From Planctomycetota bacterium (GTDB taxonomy: Bacteria; Planctomycetota; Planctomycetia; Pirellulales; Pirellulaceae), in assembly GCA_014381825.1 (NCBI GenBank), contig JACNKX010000053.1, positions 120,921 to 184,920 of the forward strand: a DNA stretch of 64,000 nt, in the 5' to 3' direction. The position numbers and the translations under genes are program-made. Shown one piece after another: positions 8,889-37,546 of the stretch (positions are counted from its first letter, which is position 1; each line of letters starts with the position of its first letter). The notes below the pieces were generated by a model. That model was not told where the DNA came from. It did no database searches and saw only the letters and a list, made by a program, of their open reading frames with translations.

Positions 8889-9611
8889 TTACATGAAGTT
8901 GCAATCCATGCCGAGCCGCATCTTCAGTTCGTCGAACTGCTGATAAAATGTGTCGCTCGAAGAATGCACGTGTTCGGCCTCGGTGATGAACTTGATGTCG
9001 TCTCGGCTGCGAACGCCGTACGATTCGAGAATTCGTTCGAATTCGTCGAGCGGGTTGCCATACACGATTAAGAGTTTGTGTTCGTCGAACTGAACTTCTT
9101 GCGGAATCCCTGGGTTGAGGACAGCGATGCCGGTGCAGCCATCGTTGACCAACAGGTCTTCATAGTCATAGAGTGTGCTCTTCAGCACGGGCACATCGAT
9201 GTGCTCGCGGTACAAGTCGGTGTGGCCACCGCTGTCACGACTGTGACTAGTCTCCAGGACGACGTCGACTTCAACGCCCAGCGGATCGATCAACTCCATG
9301 AAGATCTCGAAGAGGATCTCGTTGGAAGCCGCCGCCATGATTACGGGAACATTGCTCTTGGCCTCTTCGTCGTGATAGACGTCGTGGCGGTATCCTTGTT
9401 CGGGAATGACTTGCAAGTCGTACGAGGGACGAACTGCGTCGGTCAAACGAAACTTTCCGTATCGTTGGACGCCGAGGTGGGCTTCCAATTCGTCTTCGGA
9501 TAGTCGTTCGAAGCTGCTGTTGTTCGACGTCTGGCTCGGGCCCCGCTTCGTTGTGGCGGCTTCGCCTTGCTCGTGGAACACATTCTGAAAGAAGTTTTTT
9601 AGGAAACCCAT
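8889..9611 (-). CDS. Conserved hypothetical protein
   Basis: 240 aa from MGFLKNFFQNVF; the preceding GAGGACA suits either ATG 9611 or ATG 9614. The N-terminus is an amphipathic helix (GFLKNFFQNVF) that could bind a membrane. No signal peptide. The rest is a soluble acidic alpha/beta domain with several His/Asp/Glu residues (HSRDSGGHTDLYREH). I do not recognise the family. It ends 186 nt before the DUF1501 gene on the same strand. Confidence 0.75.
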   Translation of the reverse strand: MGFLKNFFQNVFHEQGEAATTKRGPSQTSNNSSFERLSEDELEAHLGVQRYGKFRLTDAVRPSYDLQVIPEQGYRHDVYHDEEAKSNVPVIMAAASNEILFEIFMELIDPLGVEVDVVLETSHSRDSGGHTDLYREHIDVPVLKSTLYDYEDLLVNDGCTGIAVLNPGIPQEVQFDEHKLLIVYGNPLDEFERILESYGVRSRDDIKFITEAEHVHSSSDTFYQQFDELKMRLGMDCNFM

Positions 9612-10080
9612 CATTGTCCTCGGTGTCATTGTCGGCGAGCGGTGTCAGGGGGGACGGTTTGCCCGTGGTAGGGATTCTCGTTAGTCAAAACGTAGGTTAC
9701 GCTTTCGGTCACCTGACGCAGGGTTTTTGCCAGGAAGCGGGTTGGCTTTATGCCGAACCCCGCTCCATCGACATAATCGCTACAAAGCGATCACCCTGCC
9801 TGTTGTCACGCGATCCATGAACGCCATCCCTTGCACGGTCAACCGTGGTCCGACCCAGCTCGCCAGAACAATCCGATGTCCGACGATGTGACCTCTTACA
9901 CGGGAAGTCTAGCACTCGACTTTTGGTTGGGCGGAACAGATTGCCGTGAACCTGCGAGAATTTCGCTCCAGCAGTTTGCCGGATCGTCAGATCGGGAAAG
10001 GTCAAACGACCAGTTTGGTATATATTACGCGAGCGGAATCGCAGATCGTTTATTCAAGTAATTCATGGAAGGGGATTGCT
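9612..10080. other. Intergenic region with hairpins
   Basis: Divergent gene starts flank this 470-nt stretch, so it should hold promoters for both, though I cannot point to convincing -35/-10 boxes. Visible structures are a GC-rich hairpin around 9737-9765 (GCGGGTTGGC / GCCGAACCCCGC) and a small one at about 9777-9792 (ATCGCT ACAA AGCGAT). No gene seen. Confidence 0.4.
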
Positions 10081-11691
10081 GTGCCGCTGAGTCTTCTTTG
10101 CCAGCCAAAACGTGCCAAAGCGCTACTGCTTTGTTTTTTCATTGTTTCGGTGGTTATCGGTGCGGGTTGTGACCAGCCTACTGTTGCGCCGCCTGTCGCC
10201 GAGTCGGTCACTACTCAATCTTCGGAATCAACGCTGTCGCCCACCGTTTCAAGCGATGTCAACTCAGATCACGCAATACAACGCGAACTCATTCGCGAGT
10301 CCTGGGAACTGGTATCGGTGAGCGGAGCGAAAGTCGGATACTCGCATTTCGAAGAGTTTGCGACACAGCTTGGCGATCAGCCCGTGCGAGAACTGGTCAG
10401 TAGTAACGAGATATCAATGCAGCGGTTTGGCCAAACGGTGAGTCAGAGTATCGAGGCAAGGAGCGTTGAGTCGCTCGAAGGTCAGGTTCTGCGGTTTGGA
10501 TCGAAATTGCTGTCCGGACCGTCCGAGTTGACGATCAAGGGCGAGTATCGCGACGGCAAGATGCTGATCGAAACCGGATCCCTCGGCAAGACGCAGTCGT
10601 CGTCGCTCGCTTGGGATCCCAAGTGGGGAGGCTTCTTCGCTGACCAACAGTCAATGAAGAAGAGTCCGATGAAACCCGGCGAGGAGCGAACGATCGTCGC
10701 GCTGTTTCCGGGGACGGCGCAAGCTGGCGGGATTGAGCTGAAGGCCAAGCAAATGGAGTCCGTGAGGTTGCTGAGCGAAGAACGCGAGTTGCTCCGGATT
10801 GAAAGTTCGATGGCGATTGCTGGAACGAAGATCAATTCTATACTCTGGGTGGACGATGCCGGCGAAGTCCTCAAGATGTCTGTCCCGGGTATAAATCATG
10901 AATCATTCAGGACAACAAAAGAGCTCGCCCTTCGTCCGGCAGATAAAGTTGAATTCGACTTAGGTACGCAAACAGTCGTCAAAGTCGAAAAACCGATCCG
11001 TACACCACATGCGACGACTCGTATTGTTTACCGTGCTCGACTTTCCAATGGCTCGCCGTCGGAAACGTTCTCGAATTGCCGATCACAGACCGTTACGAAA
11101 ACAGGTGACCGTTCGGCAGAGATTGTCGTGCGCGCCATACGGCCCAAGAGTGAAGTGATTGCCGATAGTGATTCTGGCGAGCCGACGGAGGCCGATGTCC
11201 AGCCAAATAACCTTATTCAAAGCGACGACGGAGCGATTGTCCGTCTCGCGGAACGTTTCGGCGAAGGAGTGACCGATCCTTGGGAGCTGGCGATGACTTT
11301 CGAGGCAGGCGTGCGAGACTATGTTCACAGCAAGAATTTTTCGCAAGCGATCAGTTCCGCTGCCGACGTCGTCCGTTCGGGCGAAGGCGATTGCACGGAA
11401 CATGCTGTTCTGCTCGCGGCTCTCTGTCGCGCCAAGGGGATTCCGGCGCGGGTTGCCATCGGCCTCGTCTACTATGGTCCCGTCCAGGGCTTTGCCTATC
11501 ACATGTGGAACGAAGTTTGGATCGCGGATGGCTGGGTGCCTATCGATGCGACTCTGGGGCTCGGAGGTATCGGAGCGGGCCACATTAAGATCGCCGATTC
11601 CGATCTGAATTCGGCCAGTCCTGTCAGCGCGCTGCTGCCCGTTGTCGAAGTCCTCGGGCAGCTAGAGCTTGATATCGTGTCGGTCGAGTGA
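10081..11691 (+). CDS. Transglutaminase-like lipoprotein
   Basis: 536 aa from GTG at 10081, chosen because GGAAGGGG lies 6 nt upstream and the lipoprotein signal follows directly (hydrophobic segment, then VVIGAGC with Cys30). The C-terminal 150 residues are a transglutaminase-like domain with the expected triad: Cys in GEGDCTEHAVLLAALCRAKG, His in AYHMWNEVW, Asp in VPIDATLG. The middle part is a beta-rich region without a name. Such domains act as cysteine peptidases or crosslinkers; the substrate is unknown. The gene ends 268 nt before the ubiquitin-like locus on the same strand; whether it belongs to it is uncertain. Confidence 0.85.
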   Translation: MPLSLLCQPKRAKALLLCFFIVSVVIGAGCDQPTVAPPVAESVTTQSSESTLSPTVSSDVNSDHAIQRELIRESWELVSVSGAKVGYSHFEEFATQLGDQPVRELVSSNEISMQRFGQTVSQSIEARSVESLEGQVLRFGSKLLSGPSELTIKGEYRDGKMLIETGSLGKTQSSSLAWDPKWGGFFADQQSMKKSPMKPGEERTIVALFPGTAQAGGIELKAKQMESVRLLSEERELLRIESSMAIAGTKINSILWVDDAGEVLKMSVPGINHESFRTTKELALRPADKVEFDLGTQTVVKVEKPIRTPHATTRIVYRARLSNGSPSETFSNCRSQTVTKTGDRSAEIVVRAIRPKSEVIADSDSGEPTEADVQPNNLIQSDDGAIVRLAERFGEGVTDPWELAMTFEAGVRDYVHSKNFSQAISSAADVVRSGEGDCTEHAVLLAALCRAKGIPARVAIGLVYYGPVQGFAYHMWNEVWIADGWVPIDATLGLGGIGAGHIKIADSDLNSASPVSALLPVVEVLGQLELDIVSVE

Positions 11692-11959: not shown

Positions 11960-12286
11960 ATGGCTGAGCAAGATCCGAACACCGAGGAATCGGGCGCGGA
12001 ACGCAAAGGAACGCGAGTGACATTCTTGGACCAGACCGGTGCCAAGTCAGTCGAAGCCGTGATCGCAGATACCGTAACGGTGAAGCGAATTCTGCCGAAC
12101 ATCATCACCAAGATGAATTTGCCAGTGATGGGCCCCGATGGCCAGCCGATGAGCTACAGCCTTGACCACAAGGAAGGCGGCAAGCGGTTGCACGAAGATC
12201 AAACTCTGGTCGAGGCCGTCGTTGGCGATGGCGATCACTTGATTGTCTATCCGGAAATTGTCGCGGGAGGCGCGGTCGAGGGTTGA
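11960..12286 (+). CDS. Ubiquitin-like protein (Ubl), first gene of the conjugation locus
   Basis: 108 aa. Strong ribosome binding site (GGTGGAG, 7 nt). Residues 1-17 are a polar, probably disordered tail. Residues 18-100 follow the beta-grasp pattern of YukD-like ubiquitin relatives: two strands (RVTFLDQ, SVEAVIAD), helix (TVKRILPNIITKM), the strand SYSLDHKEGG, the phrase LHEDQTLVEAVVGDGDHLIV, and a C-terminal tail. The tail ends IVAGGAVEG: Gly-Gly at 103-104 and a single terminal Gly108. Either Gly108 is used directly, or a JAMM peptidase removes AVEG to expose Gly-Gly. The E2, E1 and JAMM genes downstream support a role as the conjugated modifier. Confidence 0.88.
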   Translation: MAEQDPNTEESGAERKGTRVTFLDQTGAKSVEAVIADTVTVKRILPNIITKMNLPVMGPDGQPMSYSLDHKEGGKRLHEDQTLVEAVVGDGDHLIVYPEIVAGGAVEG

Positions 12287-12367
12287 GAGACAAGAGTCAG
12301 GAGCCGGAAAAAGTCGCGGAATCGCCGCCGACTCTGGCCTTAGACTCTCCGCTCTTGACTCTCCGCC
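12287..12367. repeat. Inverted GACTCT-type repeat between Ubl and E2
   Basis: The repeat begins directly after the Ubl stop codon. The left arm carries GAGACAAGAGTCAGGAGCC; the right arm has three units of about 14 nt beginning GACTCT (GACTCTGGCCTTA, GACTCTCCGCTCTT, GACTCTCCGCC). The arms are roughly complementary and can fold back. It ends 8 nt before the E2 ATG, which has no visible Shine-Dalgarno sequence. Confidence 0.6.
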
Positions 12368-12374
12368 AACTGCT

Positions 12375-13022
12375 ATGCGTGAATCACCTCGTATTCGCCG
12401 ATTGCGAACAGACCTCAAAGCTTTGGAACAGCTTCGTGAGGAAAGTTCGATCATAGAGTTTGAGGTAGCCAGAACAACGCACGACGCTCCGCCGGAATCG
12501 TACTCCATCACGTTTCGAGGCAATGGGCTTTGGCGAGCGGACTCGTCGTCTGACGTCTTTGTCCGCGAACAACATATTGTCCACATTCATCTCGGAGCTG
12601 CCTATCCACGGATGATGCCGGAGCTAGCTTGGAAGACTCCGATCTTTCACCCCAATATTTCTGGTAGCGGCGTCGTTTGTCTCGGTGGGTATGGAACACA
12701 TTGGGTTCCAAGTCTGAATCTCGACGAGTTGTGCGGCATGTTATGGGACATGATCCGCTACCAAAATTATGATGTCGAAAGTCCCTATAACCGTGAAGCG
12801 GCTTTATGGGCCAAGACGCAACGAAGTTTACGGTTGCCGGTGGACGACCGACCAATTCGAGATCGAATCGCTGGTGTGGCACCGACAATACAGGAGTCAG
12901 CGAGGCCACCGATTACTGCGGTCCCAGTGAAGGAGCCTGACGTACTTTTCATCGATGGTGAAGAAGTCGTCGAAGCCGAAGTCGTTGAATCCAGTAGCGA
13001 AGACATTCTGTTTATCGACTAG
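12375..13022 (+). CDS. E2-like ubiquitin-conjugating protein with catalytic Cys
   Basis: 215 aa from the ATG at 12375; an upstream in-frame extension would overlap the Ubl gene and is repeat-coded. UBC-like fold: ITFRGNG (strand), AAYPRMMPELAWKTPIFHPN with HPN at 92-94, then Cys102 in GVVCLGG at the place of the E2 active-site Cys, and THWVPSLNLDELCGMLWDMI. This fits the family pattern HPN...G-x-x-CL...W-x-P. A linker from about 152 leads to a disordered acidic tail with two copies of a hydrophobic motif, DVLFIDGE (189-196) and DILFID (210-215), also found in the second E2-like protein. It should accept the Ubl from the E1 as a thioester. Confidence 0.88.
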   Translation: MRESPRIRRLRTDLKALEQLREESSIIEFEVARTTHDAPPESYSITFRGNGLWRADSSSDVFVREQHIVHIHLGAAYPRMMPELAWKTPIFHPNISGSGVVCLGGYGTHWVPSLNLDELCGMLWDMIRYQNYDVESPYNREAALWAKTQRSLRLPVDDRPIRDRIAGVAPTIQESARPPITAVPVKEPDVLFIDGEEVVEAEVVESSSEDILFID

Positions 13023-13097
13023 TTGCAATACTGCGAGAGGAAATAGACGGTTCGGTGATCGGTTCTTCGCTCATTGCCCTCCACTCCCAGCTCTCTC

Positions 13098-13637
13098 ATG
13101 ATCGAACCGCTTCCCAAAACAGCGCCTGCTCCATGTGGTTCGCCTGACCGGTCCGTGATCGGAACGATCCACGACGATGCGTTACCAATCTACATCCGTG
13201 AAGCAACGCTTGAACAGATCCTCGACTACTCGGAAAACGATACGTCGCAAGAGATCGGCGGGTTCCTGCTGGGCGGGTTGCACGTTGACGAAACTGAATA
13301 CATCGAGATTCGCCACTTCTTGCCTGCGTGCGATGCCCGTTCGCGAATGGCTTCGCTCACATTCACTCACAAAACCTGGGCGCGGCTCACTCGTGATGTC
13401 GACGAGCAGTTCCCTGATGAAGTGGTCCTCGGTTGGCACCATACGCATCCCAACTTCGGAATCTTCCTCTCCGCGTATGACTTGTTCATCCATCGGCACT
13501 TTTTCAGCGAGCCTTGGCAAGTCGCGTTGGTAGTCGATCCGCATCGGCAGGAATTCGGATTCTTTCAATGGCGGCAGGATCAAGTCGTCGATTGCGGATT
13601 CATCTGCGTGTCCGAACCACAGGCGGCAACTTCATGA
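13098..13637 (+). CDS. JAB1/MPN/Mov34 (JAMM) metallopeptidase, soluble
   Basis: 179 aa from ATG 13098 (a TTG at 13074 would add 8 residues; neither has a clear ribosome binding site). The JAMM zinc signature is complete: Glu52 (QEIGGFLLGG), His115 and His117 in GWHHTHPNFGIFLSAYD, Ser125 and Asp128. Known JAMM enzymes cleave isopeptide or peptide bonds after ubiquitin-like tails. No signal peptide or membrane segment. Its stop overlaps the E1 start in ATGA, so the two are likely translated together. It shares FTHKTWA and DPHRQEFGFFQW with the membrane JAMM two genes downstream, so the two are paralogs. Confidence 0.9.
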   Translation: MIEPLPKTAPAPCGSPDRSVIGTIHDDALPIYIREATLEQILDYSENDTSQEIGGFLLGGLHVDETEYIEIRHFLPACDARSRMASLTFTHKTWARLTRDVDEQFPDEVVLGWHHTHPNFGIFLSAYDLFIHRHFFSEPWQVALVVDPHRQEFGFFQWRQDQVVDCGFICVSEPQAATS

Positions 13638-14800
13638 GCGATGCCCCACTTATCATTGATGACGATGATCGTTATTCACGCCTGCGGCTGATTGCGTGGT
13701 GGGAACAAGATAAGTTGGCGGCGGCGAAAGTTCTCGTTGTTGGGGCCGGCGCGCTCGGCAATGAAGTGCTAAAGAACGTCGCTTTGTTGGGCGTCGGGCA
13801 AGTCTACGTCGTCGACTTCGACGAGATCGAGGAGTCGAACCTTACACGGTCGGTCTTGTTCCGGCACAAGGATTGTGGCCGACCGAAGGCGGAAGCCGCA
13901 GCCGAGGCCGTGCGTGACATCAATCCCGACACCAAAGTCGTACCGATGTTTGCGAACATCATGACCGACGTCGGGCTTGGTTTGTTCCGCGACGTCGATG
14001 TCGTGATCGGTTGTCTGGACAATCGCGAAGCACGCTTGTGGGTTAATCGTCAATGTTGGAAAGTCAACACGCCGTGGATCGATGGCGGGATTCAAGAGAT
14101 CAACGGAGTCGTCAAAGTCTTCGCTCCGCCGGACAGCGCTTGTTACGAATGTGCGATGACGGAGAATGACTACCGATTGATCAATCTTCGTTATAGTTGC
14201 CCCTTGCTGCGACGAGAGGACATGCTGGCTGGCAAAGTTCCCACCGCACCAACGATTTCGTCAATCATCGCAGGCATGCAAGTGCAGGAAGCTCTTAAAT
14301 TGATTCACGGGATGCCGGTTGAATCGGGGGTGGCTTGCGTCTTCAACGGAATTACCAATCAGTTTTATAAGACGTCGTTTCAACGACGCGACGATTGTCT
14401 AAGTCACGAAACGTATCCTGACGCGATCGAACTTCCACTAGCGGCGGAGACTCACACCGCAAACGATTTGTTTGCAGCACTAGCCGCAAAGTGCGAAATT
14501 AATGGTTCGATGCGATTGGAGCTGGATCGCGATCTCGTCGTGTCAACATCATGTATGGCTTGCCAAATCGAACAGCGGATTATGAAACCCCAGCAACTGG
14601 TGGGCGGGCAGCACGCCATTTGCGGCGAGTGTGGTCAAACGGCGAAGCCGATATTAAAACACTCCATCGAATCTGAATCTGAATTGGCGCGAGAAACACT
14701 CGCGGCGTTGGGTGTGCCTCGTTACGACATCGTTCGTGTGGAGACAACTGCTGGTGAAAGGCTAGTGTTGCTAAATGGCGATATGGCCGAAGTTATATGA
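13634..14800 (+). CDS. E1-like (ThiF/MoeB/UBA type) activating enzyme
   Basis: 388 aa from ATG 13634. Rossmann-type adenylation domain with GAGALG (37-42), DFD (61-63), NLTRSVLF, GRPKAE (Lys85) and LDNREARLWVNR. CYEC (170-173) corresponds to the first half of the zinc site of this family. Cys189 in NLRYSCPLL sits before PTAPTISSIIAGMQVQEALKL, where ThiF-type proteins carry the catalytic Cys, so I propose Cys189 as the thioester residue. Four further cysteines (307, 310, 330, 333; CMAC and CGEC) can bind zinc. The C-terminal 45 residues may be an E2-binding domain. Both ends overlap neighbours by ATGA (JAMM before, membrane JAMM after). Confidence 0.92.
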   Translation: MSDAPLIIDDDDRYSRLRLIAWWEQDKLAAAKVLVVGAGALGNEVLKNVALLGVGQVYVVDFDEIEESNLTRSVLFRHKDCGRPKAEAAAEAVRDINPDTKVVPMFANIMTDVGLGLFRDVDVVIGCLDNREARLWVNRQCWKVNTPWIDGGIQEINGVVKVFAPPDSACYECAMTENDYRLINLRYSCPLLRREDMLAGKVPTAPTISSIIAGMQVQEALKLIHGMPVESGVACVFNGITNQFYKTSFQRRDDCLSHETYPDAIELPLAAETHTANDLFAALAAKCEINGSMRLELDRDLVVSTSCMACQIEQRIMKPQQLVGGQHAICGECGQTAKPILKHSIESESELARETLAALGVPRYDIVRVETTAGERLVLLNGDMAEVI

Positions 14801-16155
14801 GCAACGAACTCGACATCCAATTCGGCGATCTCGAAGAAGCAGAGCCCGAAGTGCGTCTGCGCCCTGACGGGAATAAGCACTTCGCGGTCGTACCTGTCTA
14901 CTCGCCAAGCGAAGGCGAACTGCCGATCTTCGTCGATCTCGATGCCATGCGCGACATGGAAGAACACGCGCTAGACGACACGGGCGTCGAGCTGGGCGGA
15001 GTGATGCTCGGTGGTCAGTATGAAGACGACCAGGGCCGTCCGTTTGTGTTGGTGACCGACAGCTTACGCGCGAAGCATTACGAGAGTACCAAGGGAAGTT
15101 TCAAGTTCACGCACGACACGTGGGCGCAGATCACTCGCGAACGCGACGAGTTTCCCGAAGAACTACAGATGGTAGGTTGGTACCACACTCACCCCGATTG
15201 GGGCGTGTTTTTGTCCGGGATGGACATGTTCATTTGCGACAACTTCTTTAACAAAGATCTGGATGTCGCTTTGGTCATCGACCCGTGTCGCCAGGATCGC
15301 GGCTTCTTTCAATGGACGGGAAACGTTGAACAACGAGTGCGTCGCACCGACGGGTTTTACTTGGTTGCATCGCGCTTTCGGCAGTATGAATTGGACGAAT
15401 ACGTAACATATATGGAAGGGAACGTTGCCATGTCCGGCGATCCTCGATTTTCTAGAGCGTCTTCTGGTTCCGCACCGATCGTCAACGTCGGCGGACAGCC
15501 GGCCTGGCAGACCGTGGCGGTACTCGGAATGCTGACGATGCAGTTCTGTTTTTTGATGCTGATCGCAATGCGAATGTTCAATCCGGTCGAGCCAGTAGCT
15601 AATTCACAGCCATCGAAAGACGTCGCAGCTTTGCAAGCAAGCATCGAACGTCTAGGGGAAGTGAATCGTCGCGAATCCGAGATTGATGCAAAAGTCGAAG
15701 TTCTCGATCGCGTGGTTGGCCAATGGGACGGAACGCCAGACCGCATGTTACGTTCGCTATCGGAAAAGACGAGCGAGTCGAAAGAATTGCGAGAGGGCGT
15801 ACGGGCGCACGAGGCACTGGAACGTGAACTGGATGCGACAGTCGCGGGTTTGAATTCACAACTCGAAGATGCTAAAGGACGCGAGCGAATTCTGGAGAAA
15901 GAAATCGCTGTTTTCAAAGCGAAGAGCCGCGAAGATCAAGCGAGTCTTGCTGGCTTGGAAAAGCGACTTGCCGCGCTGGAAAAGCCAGCCGAGAAGGTTG
16001 CGTTGGCGGTCGAAGACGCATCCGAAACGAAATGGGACACTAAATTGCTTATCGGCATCGCAGGGTTCGTTGTCGTCGCACTTGTCGTTGCCGCATTCAT
16101 ATTTCCAAGGCGTGAAGCCGAAGAAGAGTTTGTTTCCGAGGAAGATAACGAGTGA
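14797..16155 (+). CDS. Membrane JAMM metallopeptidase with coiled coil between two membrane segments
   Basis: 452 aa. The JAMM domain lies at about 40-195 with a full site: Glu65 (VELGGVMLGG), His130 and His132 in GWYHTHPDWGVFLSGMD, Ser140, Asp143. A hydrophobic segment follows at about 238-259 (VAVLGMLTMQFCFLMLIAM). Residues 273-398 are a charged heptad-like coiled coil, and a second segment lies at 417-436 (LLIGIAGFVVVALVVAAFIF) with a short acidic tail. If the JAMM domain is cytoplasmic, the coiled coil would be on the other side of the membrane. A likely role is removal of Ubl from membrane-linked targets. The start overlaps the E1 stop (ATGA). Confidence 0.9.
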   Translation: MSNELDIQFGDLEEAEPEVRLRPDGNKHFAVVPVYSPSEGELPIFVDLDAMRDMEEHALDDTGVELGGVMLGGQYEDDQGRPFVLVTDSLRAKHYESTKGSFKFTHDTWAQITRERDEFPEELQMVGWYHTHPDWGVFLSGMDMFICDNFFNKDLDVALVIDPCRQDRGFFQWTGNVEQRVRRTDGFYLVASRFRQYELDEYVTYMEGNVAMSGDPRFSRASSGSAPIVNVGGQPAWQTVAVLGMLTMQFCFLMLIAMRMFNPVEPVANSQPSKDVAALQASIERLGEVNRRESEIDAKVEVLDRVVGQWDGTPDRMLRSLSEKTSESKELREGVRAHEALERELDATVAGLNSQLEDAKGRERILEKEIAVFKAKSREDQASLAGLEKRLAALEKPAEKVALAVEDASETKWDTKLLIGIAGFVVVALVVAAFIFPRREAEEEFVSEEDNE

Positions 16156-16252
16156 ACGAATACAGCTAGGACGCCCCGTTAAACGAACGATTGAAATATC
16201 AAACACAAAGTAAACTCGCCACCTACCGGCGGCCTGATGAGGATACATTTCA

Positions 16253-16936
16253 GTGAGTGACAAACGCGAAGAACGTCTGATCGCGGAACTCGAATCGCTT
16301 CGAGCCTTGAAGAAAACGAGTTCGATTTTTGATTTCGAGTCGACCGGTGAAGCGCCTGATCGATATATGATCCTGTTTCGTGGTAATGGCATCACCCGCG
16401 ATACAGCCGCGGATGCCGAGATCGAAACGGTCGATCTGCATAAGATTGAACTGCGCCTGCCGTATTCCTACCCGCAACGTTCGCCGGACATCCGCTGGAC
16501 AACACCGATTCTACATCCGAACGTGTCGTTTAGCGGCTTCATCAACGTGAAAGATATCGGTTTACCCTGGGACAAAGACCTGGGGCTTGACGTCCTTTGT
16601 GAGCGGCTTTGGGATGTTGCTCGGCTGGCGTATTTGAACGTCGATCAAGCAGCCAATTACTCAGCGAAGAACTGGTTTGAAGATGAGTGCGATATCGAGT
16701 TGCCTGTTGATTCTCGACCCCTTCGCGACAAAAACGCTCCGACCGGGTCGAACGTCATACGCTATCAGAGGAAGGGCACCAACGGCGCAAAAACCGCGGA
16801 ATCTAAGGCCGGACAAGAAGTCTTCTTCATCGGTGAGGACACTCCGACGCCCGATATGCCAAAGCCAGTACGCCGAATGCCGGTTCGCCGTCCGCCACCT
16901 AATGATAACGATGTGCTTTATATTGGTGATGAGTAA
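16253..16936 (+). CDS. E2-like protein lacking the catalytic Cys (UEV-like)
   Basis: 227 aa, GTG start with TGAGGA about 10 nt upstream. It aligns along its length with the first E2: LFRGNG, SYPQRSPDIRWTTPILHPN (HPN at 88-90), LDVLCERLWDVARL, and LPVDSRPLRD. The residue aligned with the catalytic Cys is Asn98 (GFINVKD), so it should not form a Ubl thioester. In eukaryotes, Cys-less E2 variants (UEV, such as Mms2) act as partners of active E2s. The disordered tail again carries two acidic-hydrophobic motifs, EVFFIGED (189-196) and DVLYIGDE (220-227). It is separated from the membrane JAMM by 97 nt. Confidence 0.88.
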   Translation: MSDKREERLIAELESLRALKKTSSIFDFESTGEAPDRYMILFRGNGITRDTAADAEIETVDLHKIELRLPYSYPQRSPDIRWTTPILHPNVSFSGFINVKDIGLPWDKDLGLDVLCERLWDVARLAYLNVDQAANYSAKNWFEDECDIELPVDSRPLRDKNAPTGSNVIRYQRKGTNGAKTAESKAGQEVFFIGEDTPTPDMPKPVRRMPVRRPPPNDNDVLYIGDE

Positions 16937-17080
16937 GAAGACGAAGGATTGAGGGTAGAAGGCAGAAGTGATATGTGCTGACTGAGTCTGAGCTAAAACT
17001 GTTGCAATACTTGAGTTCTACCGACATGCTAAACGTCGACTACTTATTCCTCCTTTAGTCTTTCTCCTTCAACCTTCTTT
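16937..17080. repeat. Inverted purine/pyrimidine repeat between E2-variant and RING genes
   Basis: The left side, starting at the TAA stop, is purine-rich (GAAGACGAAGGATTGAGGG, then AGAAGGCAGAAG). The right side, just before the next ATG, is its pyrimidine-rich counterpart (TTCCTCCTTTAGTCTTTCTC, then CTTCAACCTTCTTT). The arms are imperfectly complementary and the element occupies the entire gap. A GGAGG-like sequence exists only on the opposite strand, so the RING gene start has no obvious ribosome binding site. Confidence 0.6.
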
Positions 17081-17965
17081 ATGGAATGTCTCGTCGTATT
17101 CTTCGGATTGCTCGCTTTCGTCACGTTCGCGATACGTGCTGCGTCAGGCGGAGAATCGGGGGGCCGACGTCGTCGTAGCTATCATCAAGCCGCGAAACAA
17201 TTCTCAGGACGATTCACTCCGGGTGGTTTCTTTGGTCAGCCGACCGTGCGTCTTCGGTACGGCGATACAGTCGCAGTGCTTACGGAGGCATCCTCACGAA
17301 GTCCGCATCCAGGTCGTTGTACGCAGTTGCAGATCAACTGGTCCGACACGCGGTTCCGTGCCGAGATCACATGTCATCTGAATGCAGATCGCACAACCGT
17401 CTTTGATCCGATGCAGACAATCGAGTCTGGCGACTCAGCGTTTGATCGTCGCTTGGTGATTCGAGGAACAGACGAGGACGAGGTCAGACGTTTTCTGAGT
17501 GATGGTGTTCGCTGGCAAATCATTCGATTGTTAGAGCTTGCAGGTGACGAGCATCTGTACATCTTGGTTGGTAGCGGACACATCTGCATTCAGAAACCGC
17601 GACTGATTCGTTCATTCGCGGCGCTAAAACCCTTTATCGAGCGTTCACTTGAACTCTACGATCAAGCCATGATCACGCGTGCGGTGGGCATCGATTTCGT
17701 CGACAACGGCGAGGCGGTGACGCTGGAACACGTGATTTGCAAAGTCTGCGGCGAAGAGATCGAAGGGCACGAGATGGTGTACTGTCAGCGGTGCAAGACA
17801 CCACATCACGGCGAATGCTGGCAATACACGGGTTCCTGCTCGGTCTATGGTTGTTTGGAGAAGAACTATCGCCGCCCGCAACCTGCGGCAGCAACCGGTG
17901 AGCCGAGCAAGGATGTTGTTCGGGAGTCAAACATTGCAAACCGTACGAAGGGACTGTCGTCGTGA
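17081..17965 (+). CDS. Membrane-anchored RING-like zinc-finger protein 1 (candidate E3)
   Basis: 294 aa. An N-terminal membrane segment (about 3-19) is followed by GGRRRR, which by the positive-inside rule puts the rest in the cytoplasm. A middle domain (about 33-205; QLQINWSDTRFRAEIT, FDRRLVIRG) vaguely resembles DUF3137. The C-terminal finger has C220, C223, C235, C238, H243, C246, C253, C258, spaced C-x2-C-x11-C-x2-C-x4-H-x2-C-x6-C-x4-C, consistent with a cross-braced RING- or PHD-like site with two zincs. RING fingers in ubiquitin systems hold the E2; a role as E3 is inferred from context. The stop overlaps the next start in GTGA. Confidence 0.8.
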   Translation: MECLVVFFGLLAFVTFAIRAASGGESGGRRRRSYHQAAKQFSGRFTPGGFFGQPTVRLRYGDTVAVLTEASSRSPHPGRCTQLQINWSDTRFRAEITCHLNADRTTVFDPMQTIESGDSAFDRRLVIRGTDEDEVRRFLSDGVRWQIIRLLELAGDEHLYILVGSGHICIQKPRLIRSFAALKPFIERSLELYDQAMITRAVGIDFVDNGEAVTLEHVICKVCGEEIEGHEMVYCQRCKTPHHGECWQYTGSCSVYGCLEKNYRRPQPAAATGEPSKDVVRESNIANRTKGLSS

Positions 17966-18825
17966 AAGACGCGGTCAGTGTGGCCTTTTTCGTCACGATC
18001 GCGATCGTGATCATCGCGTACATCGTTGGTTCACAAGTTCGTTTAAAAAGCCAGCTTCGTCATAGTTACCAGCGACTCGCTCAACGCTTTCAGGGGCGCT
18101 GCCACAATATTGGGTTGTGGGATCGTCCGAGCGTCGATTTCGTTCATAAGAACGCCCACGTGTTGGTGGAAATTTTTTCCACTGGCGGAAAGCATGCAAA
18201 ATACTACACGCAACTAAGGATCAGTTGGCCAGACAGTCGCTTTCGATGTGAGGTTTACCCGGAGGGGGTACTTTCGCGAGTAGGCAAATTCCTTGGGATG
18301 GGCGACGTCGAGATCGGATCACCGCGCTTTGATGCGGATTACGTAATCGCGGGAAGTGACGTTCGCGAACTTCAGGAGTTTCTGACGCCCCCGGTCCAGC
18401 ATTGCATCAACGAACTTCGAGCGTTTGGTCGCGAGTACCAATCGTTTCGTGGCTATGACGACCGGTATCATTCCCGCCAAGGAGACATCTACTTTGCTGT
18501 AAACGGGGGGCAAATGCAGATCAAGAAGCTCGGCTACTTGCGCGACTATGGTCAGTTGGAGCGATTCGTACTCCTATCGCTCGCCCTTTACGATCAGTCG
18601 CTCGTCACATCCGCCAAAGGCATAGAATTTGTTGAGACCAAGCCGACGGCAACACTCAGCCTGGCCGAGGCGATTTGTCAGATCTGTGGCGAGATGGTGA
18701 AGCTAGACGCCGTCTTCTGCCGTACCTGCAAGACGCCTCATCACAAAGACTGCTGGGAGTACTACGGTGCGTGTTCAACGTATGGCTGTGGGCAGCGACG
18801 ATTCTTGGTACAGCGTAAGCAATGA
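17962..18825 (+). CDS. Membrane-anchored RING-like zinc-finger protein 2 (candidate E3)
   Basis: 287 aa, GTG start overlapping the stop of its paralog. N-terminal membrane segment at about 5-23 (VSVAFFVTIAIVIIAYIVG) followed by basic residues (RLKSQLRHSYQR). The middle domain repeats the pattern of RING 1 (QLRISWPDSRFRCEVY, SPRFDADYVIAG). The finger has C239, C242, C253, C256, H261, C264, C271, C276, with KTPHHKDCWEYYGACSTYGC matching KTPHHGECWQYTGSCSVYGC in RING 1. Tandem divergent RING paralogs suggest a heterodimer, which is inference. It ends 10 nt from the convergent VIT/vWA gene. Confidence 0.8.
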   Translation: MKDAVSVAFFVTIAIVIIAYIVGSQVRLKSQLRHSYQRLAQRFQGRCHNIGLWDRPSVDFVHKNAHVLVEIFSTGGKHAKYYTQLRISWPDSRFRCEVYPEGVLSRVGKFLGMGDVEIGSPRFDADYVIAGSDVRELQEFLTPPVQHCINELRAFGREYQSFRGYDDRYHSRQGDIYFAVNGGQMQIKKLGYLRDYGQLERFVLLSLALYDQSLVTSAKGIEFVETKPTATLSLAEAICQICGEMVKLDAVFCRTCKTPHHKDCWEYYGACSTYGCGQRRFLVQRKQ

Positions 18826-18835
18826 GAATGTACGA

Positions 18836-21800
18836 TCAGTTTTTAATCGTGACCGTCGACAGATCACGCTTCTCTTTCTGGTTGCTGAGCGTGACCGTCT
18901 TCTTCTCGACCAACTCTTGCTTGTCTCCAAAGTCCTTGTAGACCGTGATGTAGACCTTGGTGCGAACCTTCGTTCGATTCGCGTCGCTGCCAAAGTAATT
19001 CGCCATGATTTTGTAGTCGCCACGTTTTGCCTTAGGCAAAGTGTACATCTCGGGCCCGAGCCCTTCGGTAACATCGTGAGTGACGTGGCCGCCGATGCGA
19101 GTCGTGGGGTGATTGTAGAAGCACTCTTCGCCCGTCGGTTCGAGGACGTGTAGATCGACATCCGTGCGGTCTGTGTTCCACATCATGGTGATCACGAGGT
19201 CCGCGTTGTTAATTGGCGTTTGTCCGGCCAGCGACTCGAACCGTGCTTTAGCATATTCGGGAGCGTGACTCGACAGTTCGCCTTGATTGATGCGTCGCAA
19301 CAGCCGCAGGTATTCGACGCCAGCGATGTCGCGGATGTCTTTGTAGCGATCGTGCCAGCGTGCGTTAACGGCCACTTCGTAGTAGACCATCGCCAGATCC
19401 GCATGCCCGATATCGGCAAGGCATTGAGCCATGGCGATATAGGATTGCGGTTCGTAAGGTCGCATCGAAGCGACTCGCCGTAGCAGCGGAAACGCTTGTC
19501 CGCCGAGGTCCCATTCGATGGCCGAGTACGCGACGTCGCGCGTCAGCACCGGATCGCCCGGATTCTGTTCGATCAAGCTGCTGAGCATTCTCAACCCGTT
19601 TGCCGCACCGTGCTGCTTAAGAAGTTGATTTGCTTGTGCCGTCACCGCGTCATATTCGAGCTTGCCGCTATCGAGCTGCTCAATGAACTCTTTCGCAAAG
19701 TCGCCTCGCTTGTGCGATTCGCAGCTCAGACGAGCTGGCTCGACGTCGAAAGCCGACTGCGGGAGCCGATCGATCGCTAGTCGCAGCGCTGTTGGCAGCT
19801 CGAATTGAAAACCGGCTGTGTTCTGAAGCTTGTCGAGCCAAGCGACGACGTTCGCCTTGGCATCACCAAGTTGCTCTGACAACTCGTCGAGCTTTTGGGT
19901 GATTAGATCCGCGGAAGGAGTGCTGCGAACGACGAACAGGTCGTCTTCGGGCTTGATGTTAAACCGCTGATAGTCCGCTTCACTTTCCAACATCAGCAGC
20001 GAGCACGTTTGTCGCGTTACGCGGAAGTGGCGAGCGTAGGCGACAGAAATGTCTTCCAGCGAGCTGCCGAGGTCTTCGAGTTGCCCGACGGCGACTTGGC
20101 CGTAGGCGCGCGCCGCAAGATCCGATTCCACGACTCGCTCGAACTCGACCGAAAGGTGCTTCTGCTCGTCCCCACGCGACGCGGTCATCAAAACTTCTGC
20201 GTCTGGATCGCCACGTCCGACGAGCAACAGCGACTGGCCGGGATAGATATACTGTGGTCGTCCAGCGACTAACAGGTCAGACCCGCCAGCCATCGATACG
20301 TCGGTCAGCTTCCAAGGACGGCTACGATGTGCCGTTGCGGCGTTCGCGACTTCGTCTTCGTTGATGATCGAGAAGACTGCACCTCCGGTCTCACGCGTGA
20401 GATGTTCGAGCGTTGTGGTCGAAGTGCCTGCCATGCCGGTTTTGTAAGCGATTAGAGTCTGACCAGCCGTGAAGCTCTTGCTTAACTGATGCGGATTCAT
20501 TTCGCCCCAGGTCACGGCCCCGTCGCTGAGCAAAAACAAATCACGCGAAGCGGACTTCTTCTCATCTTTCTTGGCCCATGATGGAGCGGTTGCCTCGCGT
20601 ATCGCTTGACGGAGGTCGGTGGCTCCTTCCAGCGAGAGCGAATGACAATACGTCATCAAGGCATCGACGTTTTCGGGCGTATTGTCGACATCGGCTTCTT
20701 TCCACCAATGCGAATCAATGCTGAAGAACAAGACGGAGAATTGCTTCATCGTCTCGCGGTTCTTTGTTAACACCGACTCGAGAAGGTTGAGCCAGATGTT
20801 GAACTTGTCTGGTCGTGAACTGAGCGAAGTGTCGACCAAGAAGGTCGCACGCTCGGCTCCTGCCTGCATTTCGCCCGCGGGAAGCTTGGGCGTGACCCGA
20901 GCCGCGAAGAATTTGCCTGCTTGCGGATCGCTTCCCTCGAGCAAGACGGGACCAGTGCCGGCGTAGCGAAGTTCGATCGAGCTGTCTTTCACTTCGTTGA
21001 AGTGATAATACGCCCGCCCGCCCGAGACAAAGGGGCGAGTCGTCGGTCGGATGTCGGCCGAAGTGCCCGGCAACGCCGATACGTTGAGATCGACCATACA
21101 CTGCGCGACGTCTTCAGGTAGATCGAGTTGATAGACCAAGTCGTCGCCCACTTGTTGAAGGTCCACATCGTAGCCAACGACGATGCGATGCAGCTTCTTT
21201 GGCATCAGCGGGAAGACGCGAGCGTTGAACATGCCGGCACCGGACCACTCGACCAGAGCCGGATCAACGCGACGGCGAACCGTCTCGCTGTAAGCATGAG
21301 CAGCCTTCTCGCGTGGAACAACGCGAGCTTCTTTCACCTTGCTCCAGCTGCCTTCACGAGCTTCGAGAATCCCCTTGGGACTTAAACCCGCGGCGCGAAC
21401 CAATTCGCCATTCAAGAAACCTTTGCTGGCGAGTTGATCCACCTGCGGACGATACTCGTAAGCTGATTCGCCGAAGGCAAAGTAGTACAACGACGCATCG
21501 TTAGGCAGACGCAGCTTGAAATTGCCTTCCACTTGCTGCGATCGGTCGTTGAAGTAATACAAGTCGAGCAGCACGCGAGCACGAAAGCCATCCACCATCA
21601 CATTGGCCTGCATCCCTTCCATCAACAACTCGTCGCGGTCGCCGACGATGAGACGTGAGGCGTTGGGTGTTGCTTGAGCGCGACGCCATGTTCGCTGTGG
21701 AGCGTTTTGCTTCTTGCCAGCCATCCGATCGAGCCGCTCGGCGAGTTTCCTCTCGGTATCGACGCTACGAAGATCGATAGCAGCTGGATCCCCGTTAATC

Positions 21801-22996
21801 GCCGCGTCCGGTTCTAGAACGCCACTTTCATTAGGATCGGCCAACATCGCTAATAGATCTGACACCGACTTTTGCGAGCGATCTTCTGCGATGACTCCAT
21901 TTTCATCAACCGATGACCTCGAAACATCTGCCCTAAGGCCCTTTCCGCCGGTAAGTCGTCCTCGCTCGATACTCTCTTGCTCACGTTCATCTGTCGACGA
22001 GGAGGGATCGACACGTCGAATCGCTGGCACGCCATCGACGGGCTCGCCAAACATTGCCTCGCCGCGACCAGACGTTCTGCCCTCGCTACTCGATTCGGCG
22101 GCCCTATCCTCAGCCCCACTGTCAAAGCCCAAGCCAGCACGGAGCCGATCGGTCTCTAAGTTGGAAACGTCAAATCGTGGGCTCGACTCGTCGGAATCCA
22201 TCAACTCTGGCTGACGCGAGTTGAGAAATGTGTTATCGCCTGGCGCGACGCTCGAATCAAACCCACCCATTGCTGGTGCCGTTCGCCCAGAACTCTTTTC
22301 GGCAAAACTGAGATCGGAGCTTTCATCCTGGTTGAGATCTTGATTCGCGGCATTCAGTTTGCGGATTTGTTCCAGCACGTTCTGTGGAAGATCGCGATAG
22401 TTCAATGATTCGCTAGGAAGATCAGCCGACGACGCGTCACCATAAAGTTCCGTCAGGAGCCGCTCACCTTCGACATGCTCTTCCACGTCATCGGGGTGCG
22501 GCGAACGGACCGCGCCTGAATCGAGATACACCGCATCGTCAGCTAAATAGTGCCCGCTGGGGAGACTCTGCGAAGCGGAAGGCTTTTCTGCAGGTGCGAC
22601 CATTTGGCTGACATCGCGCCATGCGGTCCTGGTCGAATACTGAACCGCGGAAAAGAAAAGTAGTGCGACGAGGAGCGACGCGGCGACTGAAGCGGTCGCG
22701 ATCGTGATGACACGGCGACGACGGCGGCTGCCCTTCGCACGTGTCGAATGATCAACAAGTTCGATCGAGCCTACCGCTGACTGTTCCTGAATCGCACGGC
22801 GGTGTTCAGCCGTCAACGCTGGGCCAGAATCGATTCGCAGGCTGTCCTCGAACATTGCAGCCGATTGTCGTATCGACTCGACCTCGGCCTGCAACTCGGG
22901 TGATGCCGTGAGCGCTGATTCGATTTCCGCGCGATCGGCGTCGCCGAGTTCGCCGAGGACGTAAGCCGTCAAGCGTGGGTCATCTGAGTTAATCAT
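18836..22996 (-). CDS. Large membrane protein: anti-sigma-like N-terminus, VIT, vWA, TPR and YfaP/DUF2135-like domains
   Basis: 1386 aa from ATG 22996, chosen because GGAG lies 8 nt upstream and the protein then begins MINSDDPRLTAYVLGELGD, typical of planctomycete anti-sigma-like proteins. Earlier GTG/ATG codons at 23023/23020 lie in a repeat. Order: cytoplasmic anti-sigma-like segment (first 75 residues), membrane span (ITIATASVAASLLVALLFFSA), a long low-complexity linker, a VIT domain (MVDGFRARVLLDLYYFND), a vWA domain with DTSLSS as a MIDAS-like start, TPR-like helices, and a C-terminal domain beginning MMWNTDRTDVDLHVLEPTGE that resembles YfaP/DUF2135. The ECF sigma gene lies just upstream. 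A role as sensor that restrains the sigma factor is inferred. Confidence 0.85.
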   Translation of the reverse strand: MINSDDPRLTAYVLGELGDADRAEIESALTASPELQAEVESIRQSAAMFEDSLRIDSGPALTAEHRRAIQEQSAVGSIELVDHSTRAKGSRRRRRVITIATASVAASLLVALLFFSAVQYSTRTAWRDVSQMVAPAEKPSASQSLPSGHYLADDAVYLDSGAVRSPHPDDVEEHVEGERLLTELYGDASSADLPSESLNYRDLPQNVLEQIRKLNAANQDLNQDESSDLSFAEKSSGRTAPAMGGFDSSVAPGDNTFLNSRQPELMDSDESSPRFDVSNLETDRLRAGLGFDSGAEDRAAESSSEGRTSGRGEAMFGEPVDGVPAIRRVDPSSSTDEREQESIERGRLTGGKGLRADVSRSSVDENGVIAEDRSQKSVSDLLAMLADPNESGVLEPDAAINGDPAAIDLRSVDTERKLAERLDRMAGKKQNAPQRTWRRAQATPNASRLIVGDRDELLMEGMQANVMVDGFRARVLLDLYYFNDRSQQVEGNFKLRLPNDASLYYFAFGESAYEYRPQVDQLASKGFLNGELVRAAGLSPKGILEAREGSWSKVKEARVVPREKAAHAYSETVRRRVDPALVEWSGAGMFNARVFPLMPKKLHRIVVGYDVDLQQVGDDLVYQLDLPEDVAQCMVDLNVSALPGTSADIRPTTRPFVSGGRAYYHFNEVKDSSIELRYAGTGPVLLEGSDPQAGKFFAARVTPKLPAGEMQAGAERATFLVDTSLSSRPDKFNIWLNLLESVLTKNRETMKQFSVLFFSIDSHWWKEADVDNTPENVDALMTYCHSLSLEGATDLRQAIREATAPSWAKKDEKKSASRDLFLLSDGAVTWGEMNPHQLSKSFTAGQTLIAYKTGMAGTSTTTLEHLTRETGGAVFSIINEDEVANAATAHRSRPWKLTDVSMAGGSDLLVAGRPQYIYPGQSLLLVGRGDPDAEVLMTASRGDEQKHLSVEFERVVESDLAARAYGQVAVGQLEDLGSSLEDISVAYARHFRVTRQTCSLLMLESEADYQRFNIKPEDDLFVVRSTPSADLITQKLDELSEQLGDAKANVVAWLDKLQNTAGFQFELPTALRLAIDRLPQSAFDVEPARLSCESHKRGDFAKEFIEQLDSGKLEYDAVTAQANQLLKQHGAANGLRMLSSLIEQNPGDPVLTRDVAYSAIEWDLGGQAFPLLRRVASMRPYEPQSYIAMAQCLADIGHADLAMVYYEVAVNARWHDRYKDIRDIAGVEYLRLLRRINQGELSSHAPEYAKARFESLAGQTPINNADLVITMMWNTDRTDVDLHVLEPTGEECFYNHPTTRIGGHVTHDVTEGLGPEMYTLPKAKRGDYKIMANYFGSDANRTKVRTKVYITVYKDFGDKQELVEKKTVTLSNQKEKRDLSTVTIKN

Positions 22997-23012
22997 TTCA
23001 GGTTCTCCGAAA

Positions 23013-23129
23013 GTAGCCATCACTCTCCGAGTGATAAGCCCTTGAAGTTTGAGTTGGAATGGCTTGAGTTATTTTCCTGCTTGACGATGGGTTCCCGAAG
23101 GGGCTCTTCTCTCGGAGAGAGATGGCTAC
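23013..23129. repeat. Paired palindromic element (REPIN-like), copy 2
   Basis: The left half-site (23013-23041) reads GTAGCCATCACTC TCC GAGTGATAAGCCC. The right one (23101-23129), read on the minus strand, is GTAGCCATCTCTC TCC GAGAGAAGAGCCC. The left half differs from the one at 5183-5211 by a single base in 29. The two halves enclose about 60 nt. The TAG in the right half-site is the stop codon of the sigma factor gene; the left half-site holds potential start codons of the VIT/vWA gene. Confidence 0.85.
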
Positions 23130-23644
23130 GTTGTTACACCAAGTTCGACGCGCAGTTTTTTGATGGCGGTATGTATGAGGTACCCGACGTTGCTGGCTGA
23201 TAGCTCAGTGACGGCTGCAATCTCTTTGTAGCTCAGGCCGTGCTGGAACTTCAATCGCACGACTTCGCGTTGGTTTTCCGTCAGCTTGTCGACGAACTCC
23301 AGGACGCGATCGGTTGTGTCCTGCTGTTCAGTGACGACCGTTTGATCCGTGTCGCGACTCTCTTGAACGGTCGCTTGCTCGGCTGTCATCGATCTCATAC
23401 GTGACTCCTTGCGTCGTATATCCAACGCCCGATTCCGGCAGACTGTGTACAGCCACTCGACGAGATGTCCATCGAGCTGCTGGCGATCCTGCTTGCACAG
23501 CCGCAGGAAAGTGTCCTGGGCGACATCGCGACCGCGCTCCAAATCGCCGGTAATCTGGGCAGCATAGCGCACGAGCGGACGCTCGAATTTTTCGACGACC
23601 GTGTTGATCCAGTCGCTAGTCGCGCTGTGCTCGTTGCTGCTCAT
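23126..23644 (-). CDS. ECF-type RNA polymerase sigma factor
   Basis: 172 aa. Start ATG preceded by GGAGGGAA. Sigma region 2 is at about 22-85 (AAQITGDLERGRDVAQDTFLRLCK, LVEWLYTVCRNRALDIRRKESR) and region 4 at about 118-168 (LTENQREVVRLKFQHGLSYKEIAAVTELSASNVGYLIHTAIKKLR). The next gene on the strand encodes a membrane protein with an anti-sigma-like N-terminus, the usual partner arrangement. Its stop codon TAG lies inside the palindromic element. Targets are unknown. Confidence 0.93.
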   Translation of the reverse strand: MSSNEHSATSDWINTVVEKFERPLVRYAAQITGDLERGRDVAQDTFLRLCKQDRQQLDGHLVEWLYTVCRNRALDIRRKESRMRSMTAEQATVQESRDTDQTVVTEQQDTTDRVLEFVDKLTENQREVVRLKFQHGLSYKEIAAVTELSASNVGYLIHTAIKKLRVELGVTT

Positions 23645-26170: not shown

Positions 26171-26487
26171 GTTCAATCTCCAATAAGATGTTTGCGGCAG
26201 GTGTGGTGCGCGCAGTCCCAGACCACGTTGTCACCACCATGTCCCCACGACCCTGCTGCCTTGTGTGAATACCCCAGCGAATGCTGATGGAGGAGAGATG
26301 AGTTCGGCCTCCATTTAAACAAATAGGTCGATTTCCCTTCGAAGTCAAATAACTACGAGGGAATTCGCAGACGGTCTTGGTGCGAGCGGCGGGCCGTTCT
26401 GGTGGCAAGATCGGATTCGGTGTAGAACTGTCTCGACTTGCTTTAATCGAAATACTATTCCCGGTTAATGATGAACAGGAGTTTTCA
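26171..26487. other. Divergent intergenic region
   Basis: Lies between the coiled-coil gene (minus) and the CDGSH gene (plus), so it should hold both promoters. I see no clear boxes and no repeat. Confidence 0.3.
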
Positions 26488-37245: not shown

Positions 37246-37546
37246 AAATGATCTCCGTCGGGATTCGAGTGGTATGCAGCGTACCGTCTCGTAAGGATAG
37301 CTTGAGAATTCGCATTGAGCGAGGCCGTGCGATTCGAGTTCAAACCGCGAGACGCGATGGCAAACTGCAGAAGGCGATGTGTTGAACAGCTGACGAGGGG
37401 GGTGATTGGATAAACGAACAGATATTACAATCGGCCATCAGCGTGTTCGCACTCGACAAGGTGCTGTGTGTGGCCGAAGCAGTTTGGAACGACGGCCGCG
37501 AGGTTGCGACTCGTTCACCCAGTCAAACGGAAACGTTCCGAGGACC
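37246..37546. other. Intergenic region, divergent
   Basis: 300 nt between the PHP gene and the restriction-modification gene. An open frame extends upstream of the RM start from TTG 37406 but has no family-like content, so I treat it as non-coding leader. No repeat or clear promoter seen. Confidence 0.3.

Follow-up and report, generated by a model that had tools for sequence, protein, structure and literature searches.

The best-studied bacterial cascades built on a ubiquitin-like protein (Ubl), namely Bil, Bub and CBASS, are linked to defence. Bacterial operons of the composition RING-E2-E1-JAB-Ubl, with a YukD-like Ubl, were reportedly described by Burroughs, Iyer and Aravind in 2011. In the parts of the publications cited here, bacterial Ubl-E1-E2-JAB operons go back to Iyer 2006 (PMC1779556), complete bacterial operons are mentioned in PMC5654768, and operons related to that of Caldiarchaeum are placed in Actinobacteria, Planctomycetes and Acidobacteria (PMC4197634, citing Burroughs 2011). 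The locus analysed here lies in a stretch of 64,000 nucleotides, hereafter the window, from a planctomycete of the family Pirellulaceae (G000:C60:120921-184920, part of a 9.69 Mb genome). Positions 11960-18825 of the window hold eight intact genes, all on the forward strand and without internal stops, which, judged by their sequences, encode a complete protein set for the conjugation and deconjugation of a Ubl. All five classes of the prokaryotic ubiquitin operon (Ubl, E1, E2, RING and JAMM) are present in this one operon. The original prediction, made from the letters of the window alone, had taken the layout as a whole to be undescribed. This is not supported, as PMC4197634, in the part cited, reports related operons in Planctomycetes and the RING proteins fall into a prokaryotic RING family that is already curated; going by that source, the kind of operon is already known and the form in the window is a variant of the bacterial RING-bearing Ubl operons.

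The genes follow in the order Ubl, E2, soluble JAMM peptidase (JAMMs), E1, membrane JAMM peptidase (JAMMm), Cys-less E2 paralogue (E2v), RINGa and RINGb. Three junctions (JAMMs/E1, E1/JAMMm and RINGa/RINGb) are overlaps of 4 bases, and the remaining four intergenic gaps measure 75-144 bases. The starts of E2 (12375, not 12243), JAMMs (13098) and E1 (13634) match the relatives better than those of the longest frames. Every protein class that had been named from the letters was confirmed by a Pfam match, for all eight proteins above the Pfam cut-offs (Table 1). A chance arrangement is ruled out, since many relatives keep identical genes in identical order.

A profile of the Ubl matched in 78 of 241 genomes of the family (its own included), spread over 37 of 68 genera, and, among 392 genomes sampled from the phylum, in 31. 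Scanning named genomes yielded 128 loci, from which the best 80 by Ubl similarity (L065-L144) were compared, a choice biased to near relatives. Most carry the names Pirellulaceae, Planctomycetaceae, Planctomycetota or those of planctomycete genera, some belong to Isosphaeraceae (Tautonia, Singulisphaera) and two are labelled just 'bacterium'. Three loci without a recovered Ubl frame (L089, L091 and L092) stand outside the Ubl counts, and the complete set of 59 loci leaves out 21 with less than 7 kb after the Ubl or without such a frame. The genes are conserved together, as had been expected: the 59 complete loci contain E2 in 58 cases, E1 in 58, JAMMm in 55 and RING in 54. Ubl-E2-E1-JAMMm-RING is found most often (30 of the 80 loci); the layout of the window, with JAMMs and E2v, occurs with one, two or three RINGs in 10, 6 and 3 loci, so that the pairing of RINGs proposed earlier is not a fixed trait. 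The system is a conserved five-gene core, Ubl-E2-E1-JAMM-RING, of which the window carries an expanded form.

Table 1. Genes of the Ubl locus and the two neighbouring genes that mark its site, in window coordinates.
Feature	Length (aa)	Position	Strand	Match or characteristic
Ubl	108	11960..12286	+	YukD 1.6e-15; predicted ubiquitin fold
E2	215	12375..13022	+	UQ_con 4.8e-12; HPN motif, Cys102
JAMMs, soluble JAMM peptidase	179	13098..13637	+	JAB 1.3e-9; EIGG and HxHx7Sx2D
E1	388	13634..14800	+	ThiF 9.9e-60, adenylation domain
JAMMm, membrane JAMM	452	14797..16155	+	JAB 3.7e-8
E2v, Cys-less E2 paralogue	227	16253..16936	+	UQ_con 1.6e-7
RINGa	294	17081..17965	+	Prok-RING_1 9e-10; predicted transmembrane segment 3-21
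RINGb	287	17962..18825	+	Prok-RING_1 5.9e-11; predicted transmembrane segment 4-22
Transglutaminase-like neighbour, outside the system, site marker		9946..11691	+	Transglut_core 5.2e-21
c6, conserved neighbour, outside the system, site marker		8889..9629	-	in 118/119 family genomes

Some variants were seen besides these layouts. In one genome (G021, probably Lignipirellula cremea), Ubl-E2-JAMMs-E1 lies at 6.10 Mb (the L186/L049 pair) and JAMMm-E2v-RING at 3.55 Mb; a single operon is not required, because this genome splits the classes over two sites. A second, diverged type has a Ubl ending in or near EITAG (L052 1481-8326, L050 9535-11145, L187 6759-7028) and comprises in L052 an E1, a JAMM, a RING protein whose zinc domain lies in the middle and an E2 whose active-site stretch is shortened. 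Ubl genes with operon neighbours were also found in bins named Riflebacteria (L130), Wallbacteria (L134) and Abditibacteriales (L127), which may reflect transfer or misbinning.

Of the operon's proteins, the Ubl is conserved best, and it has a single ubiquitin-like domain. Its AlphaFold2 model (pLDDT 80.4, last block low) gave the ubiquitin of Caldiarchaeum (6fno_D, 1.2e-5) as first row in Foldseek, tied with a ubiquitin variant. Residue 103 aligns with residue 76 of ubiquitin (rows 5xpk_A and 4auq_C; the model is weak at the very end), which puts a VAG motif closed by Gly103 (codon 12266-12268) at the place of ubiquitin Gly76, followed in the precursor by the five-residue tail GAVEG. VAG is kept in 76 of 77 Ubl relatives. 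The mature tag is predicted to end in Ala-Gly.

The solved structures closest to E1 are UBA7 (5.7e-35), then UBA1 and UBA3; ThiF (2e-26) and BubCD (1.4e-9) match less well. The protein begins 11 residues ahead of a conserved DRY and has the Cys pairs 170/173, 307/310 and 330/333. Cys189 (codon 14198-14200) is invariant in 73 of 73 rows, the window included, as are Cys170 and Cys173; by similarity to UBA3 we take Cys189 to be the catalytic residue. The closest solved matches of E2 are other E2s, for example UBE2E1 and UBE2D2. All 76 E2 relatives above 150 aa retain the catalytic Cys102 (codon 12678-12680), which a pattern detected in 74 and inspection in L071 and L125; L071 has QPN in place of HPN. 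At the end of long tails, E2 carries the C-terminal motif DILFID (window 13002-13019) and E2v DVLYIGDE (16910-16933). Such a short hydrophobic-acidic motif, in a pattern chosen after inspection of the E2 proteins, occurs in the last 12 residues of 66/77 E2s and 16/22 E2vs and in 3/990 other mechanically called open reading frames above 200 aa in these loci. It resembles a SUMO-interacting motif and may serve as a peptide that docks the tag or a partner.

A link to the membrane is predicted for two of the classes. JAMMm, foreseen as a membrane JAMM with a coiled coil, indeed consists of a JAMM domain, a predicted transmembrane segment (240-258), a coiled coil and a second predicted segment (417-435); HTHPDWGVFLSGMD is present in its own sequence, and hydropathy gives at least two segments in 48 of 53 full-length relatives. 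Both RING proteins have a middle domain (residues 29-219 in RINGb) ahead of a C4HC3 RING (~17732-17863 in RINGa, ~18667-18795 in RINGb), and in RINGa positive charges follow the predicted N-terminal segment. The middle domain is predicted to resemble TtfA in fold and probably also the translocon subunit CCDC47. No sequence link of this domain to either protein was found, and Foldseek with the RING model gave no match below E 0.2. Membrane-protein clients are favoured because of this predicted fold, and membrane-based modification, already suggested from the letters alone, stays a prediction that the fold makes likelier.

We propose a cascade in which tagging would take place at the inner membrane. 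A JAMM peptidase would cut the Ubl precursor after Gly103, exposing the VAG end; E1 would adenylate the tag and then carry it on Cys189, and Cys102 of E2 would take it over from E1. The membrane-anchored RING, its N-terminus outside and its RING in the cytoplasm, would keep E2~Ubl beside the clients, which the TtfA/CCDC47-like middle domain would select and which would most likely be membrane or nascent membrane proteins. JAMMm would take the tag off again, with two JAMM peptidases predicted for removal, and the optional E2v and JAMMs would lengthen and trim chains or tune E2. The genes, their motifs, order, conservation and co-inheritance are read from the DNA, folds and topology are predicted, and it is catalysis, the order of the steps, the clients and the fate of the tagged proteins that we infer. 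That the operon encodes a Ubl cascade is very probable; that the cascade is centred on the membrane is fairly probable; for membrane clients we regard the chances as evenly balanced.

The genes that set the expanded form apart are JAMMs and E2v. The HxHx7Sx2D motif of JAMMs is present in 27 of 27 relatives, and its Glu motif was detected by pattern in 19 of them. In E2v, Asn98 (codon 16544-16546) occupies the place of the catalytic Cys, and the active-site stretch is free of Cys in 22 of 22 relatives, so that the E2 was rightly called Cys-less; a UBC fold (UQ_con 1.6e-7) is combined with the lack of a catalytic Cys as in a ubiquitin E2 variant (UEV). Both genes are present in 20 of the 59 complete loci, neither in 36 and one alone in 3 (Fisher p 1.7e-12, not corrected for relatedness). 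One branch splits E2 from E2v (support 100/99) in a tree of 69 rows, 21 of them E2v, which covers E2s of this system only and lacks 27 of the 75 E2s and the E2vs of L085 and L099. In the JAMM tree, from which part of the JAMMm rows was dropped, 26 rows of JAMMs cluster with support 100/99. The single JAMMs of L130, L134 and L142 stand next to this cluster, and JAMMm falls across a split supported by 86/85. On the E1 tree (57 rows from the window and the complete loci with a usable E1), presence and absence of the pair takes 9 changes, of which well-supported branches force at least 4, against a mean of 16.4 for shuffled data; a single origin of the eight-gene form is not shown there. If E2v arose once, as the E2 tree allows, these several changes imply that E2v and JAMMs were jointly lost several times, and repeated joint loss favours a shared task. 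On these grounds the putative E2v and soluble JAMM are an optional module, inherited together.

The module would most likely lengthen and trim chains of the tag, or else tune E2. Chain building by E2v is taken as a lead, and so is Ubl Lys42 as the chain lysine: residue 42 is Lys in 21/22 complete loci with E2v (window included) and in 7/38 without it. Against the chain part stand Ubl columns 87 and 57, which split the two groups about equally well, and L076, which has an E2v and Arg42; the enrichment may reflect shared descent, because other Ubl columns separate the groups about as well. A rival to this one part, compatible with the rest of the proposal, is that E2v serves as a scaffold or decoy docking E2 or the tag and builds no chains. 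Such a role would agree with its fast evolution (median identity 35%) and with its closest solved structures, which among the best 60 of 191 matches are Ubc13-type E2s and no UEVs. Co-inheritance with an intact second JAMM argues against it, as does, weakly given the other columns, the enrichment of Lys42. We regard the scaffold as a credible candidate, somewhat short of an even chance.

The role of the RING proteins as ligases was weighed in the same way. They are the fastest-evolving part of the operon (median identity 29%), their fold scores are modest and solo RING genes persist with no other operon gene nearby, all of which would suit membrane anchors or readers of the tag, with conjugation by E2 alone or with E2v and E2 in the ligase role. 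Yet Prok-RING_1 was detected in 52 of 52 aligned RING proteins (E up to 1), their zinc-ligand cysteines are invariant, and the RING shares the locus with E2 and E1 in 54 of the 59 complete loci; a non-ligase RING therefore seems rather unlikely to us. The solo genes, found without another operon gene in the fetched stretch (L041, L042, L044, L045, L048, L051, L053, L055, L056 and L059; some contigs are short), possibly encode further ligases with other clients. A bolder version of the membrane-centred cascade, which we rate as unlikely to a similar degree, would make it a counterpart of endoplasmic-reticulum-associated degradation (ERAD): membrane RINGs with a docking domain of translocon type would tag faulty or nascent membrane proteins, E2v and E2 would build Lys42 chains, and the soluble JAMM, gained and lost with E2v, would dismantle them.

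The chromosomal site bears on a possible function in defence. The gene c6, which has no Pfam match at E up to 0.1, lies upstream and divergent at no more than 3 kb from the Ubl in 45 of 77 loci, and the transglutaminase-like gene was found in 21 of 77. The Ubl and c6 could both be placed in 52 genomes. In 29 of these less than 4 kb separates them, in three the distance along the same contig is larger (G028 11.6 kb, G452 626 kb and G451 2.34 Mb), and in 20 the two lie on different contigs, where nearness cannot be judged; a site fixed in every genome was thus not borne out. Five fetched stretches devoid of operon genes (L188, L191, L195, L196 and L197) have c6 and the transglutaminase-like gene together, and L189, L190 and L194, from one genus, have both followed by a RING gene as the sole operon gene. 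The two genes stood side by side, divergent, in all 8 fetched stretches lacking the full operon. The transglutaminase-like gene was dropped as a ninth component, as it stays with c6 in the five operon-free stretches. The distribution suggests to us a single ancient site from which the operon was lost repeatedly and in some cases moved, contrary to the view of a defence cassette that travels freely.

A defence pathway against phages or stress, comparable to Bil or Bub and marking proteins of phage or host upon infection, would share its protein classes with our locus, and the E1 matches the PADLOC models E1-E2 and BilD. Patchy presence (78/241 family genomes) would fit as well, and so would the operons of at least two of the 52 genomes (G451 and G452), which are remote from the shared site. 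Opposed to this are the shared neighbourhood beside the near-universal c6 in at least 29 of 52 genomes, the very slow evolution of the Ubl, unlike an arms race, and the E1, which is closer to eukaryotic E1s (5.7e-35) than to BubCD (1.4e-9). Moreover, no defence model (PADLOC, E up to 1e-5) matched in the eight neighbouring genes compared, a set to which gene 23987-26176 does not belong. A defence island was rejected: among these eight and a type IIG restriction-methylation protein, the latter alone matched. This protein of 1198 aa (window 37406-41002, REase_MTase_IIG 3.5e-67) is encoded 18.6 kb from the operon. We consider a defence pathway improbable. A sulfur-carrier pathway of the ThiS/MoaD kind, to which the place of E1 in the ThiF/MoeB superfamily might point (NCBIfam ThiF 3e-42, yet far under the cut-off with 144 of 275 bits), is hardly credible for an operon that also encodes an E2, a RING and two JAMMs.

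Convergent to the operon is the gene of a 1395-aa VIT/VWA protein (window 18836-23023), beside a sigma-factor-like gene (23126-23644); the only relatives with it downstream of the operon are L065 and L069, both near ones. As for the fate of tagged proteins, the genome of the window has one PF00227 match, in a frame of 181 aa, and no match for a second subunit. This is the size of HslV, and a 20S proteasome of its own is not supported as the destination.

Taken as proposed, the membrane-centred cascade would mean that planctomycetes tag membrane-located proteins much like eukaryotes do. The locus joins a cascade with a RING to a second, Cys-less E2, at one shared place in many genomes and with a tag far more constant than the enzymes. 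It opens two questions to direct tests: whether membrane proteins of bacteria are marked by a ubiquitin-like tag, and by what route an E2-RING core acquired a Cys-less E2 and a second JAMM. The module of E2v and second JAMM, its co-inheritance, the Ala-Gly tag, the shared site and the TtfA/CCDC47-like RING domain were not found in the literature searched, which did not cover the contents of Burroughs 2011.

In eukaryotes, an active E2 is paired with a Cys-less one in UBC13-UEV, and JAMM deubiquitinases are known. The E2 and E2v of the window recall this pair, here together with a second JAMM, although there is no evidence of orthology. Membrane RING ligases are likewise known from the MARCH and ERAD RINGs, which resemble the planctomycete proteins in C4HC3 zinc ligands and membrane anchoring; the latter differ in having one N-terminal transmembrane segment, C-x4-C as last pair and the TtfA/CCDC47-like domain. 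Bil and Bub are also bacterial cascades of Ubl, E1, E2 and JAB; to our knowledge neither has a RING. BubCD (one solved chain) matches the E1 of the window only from BubCD residue 185 on, and no long stretch precedes the E1 here. According to the part of PMC13373217 cited, 219 of 544 Bub operons accompany the regulators CapW or CapH and CapP, and Bub was not shown to protect. In the cited part of PMC11354881 the Ubl of Bil is described as resembling ISG15 in having two or more ubiquitin-like domains, unlike the single-domain Ubl of 108 aa found here. Nearest in composition are the operons of Burroughs 2011, with the same classes, the Prok-RING_1 family and, according to the cited part of PMC4197634, occurrence in planctomycetes, and that of Caldiarchaeum subterraneum, for which the cited part of PMC5654768 gives a tailed Ubl precursor, E1, E2, RING and an Rpn11-like JAMM. 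Caldiarchaeum has a tag with a di-glycine motif and, as its RING, a small RING-finger protein, whereas the planctomycete locus has RINGs with a transmembrane segment and a folded middle domain, a predicted Ala-Gly tag, an E2v and a second JAMM.

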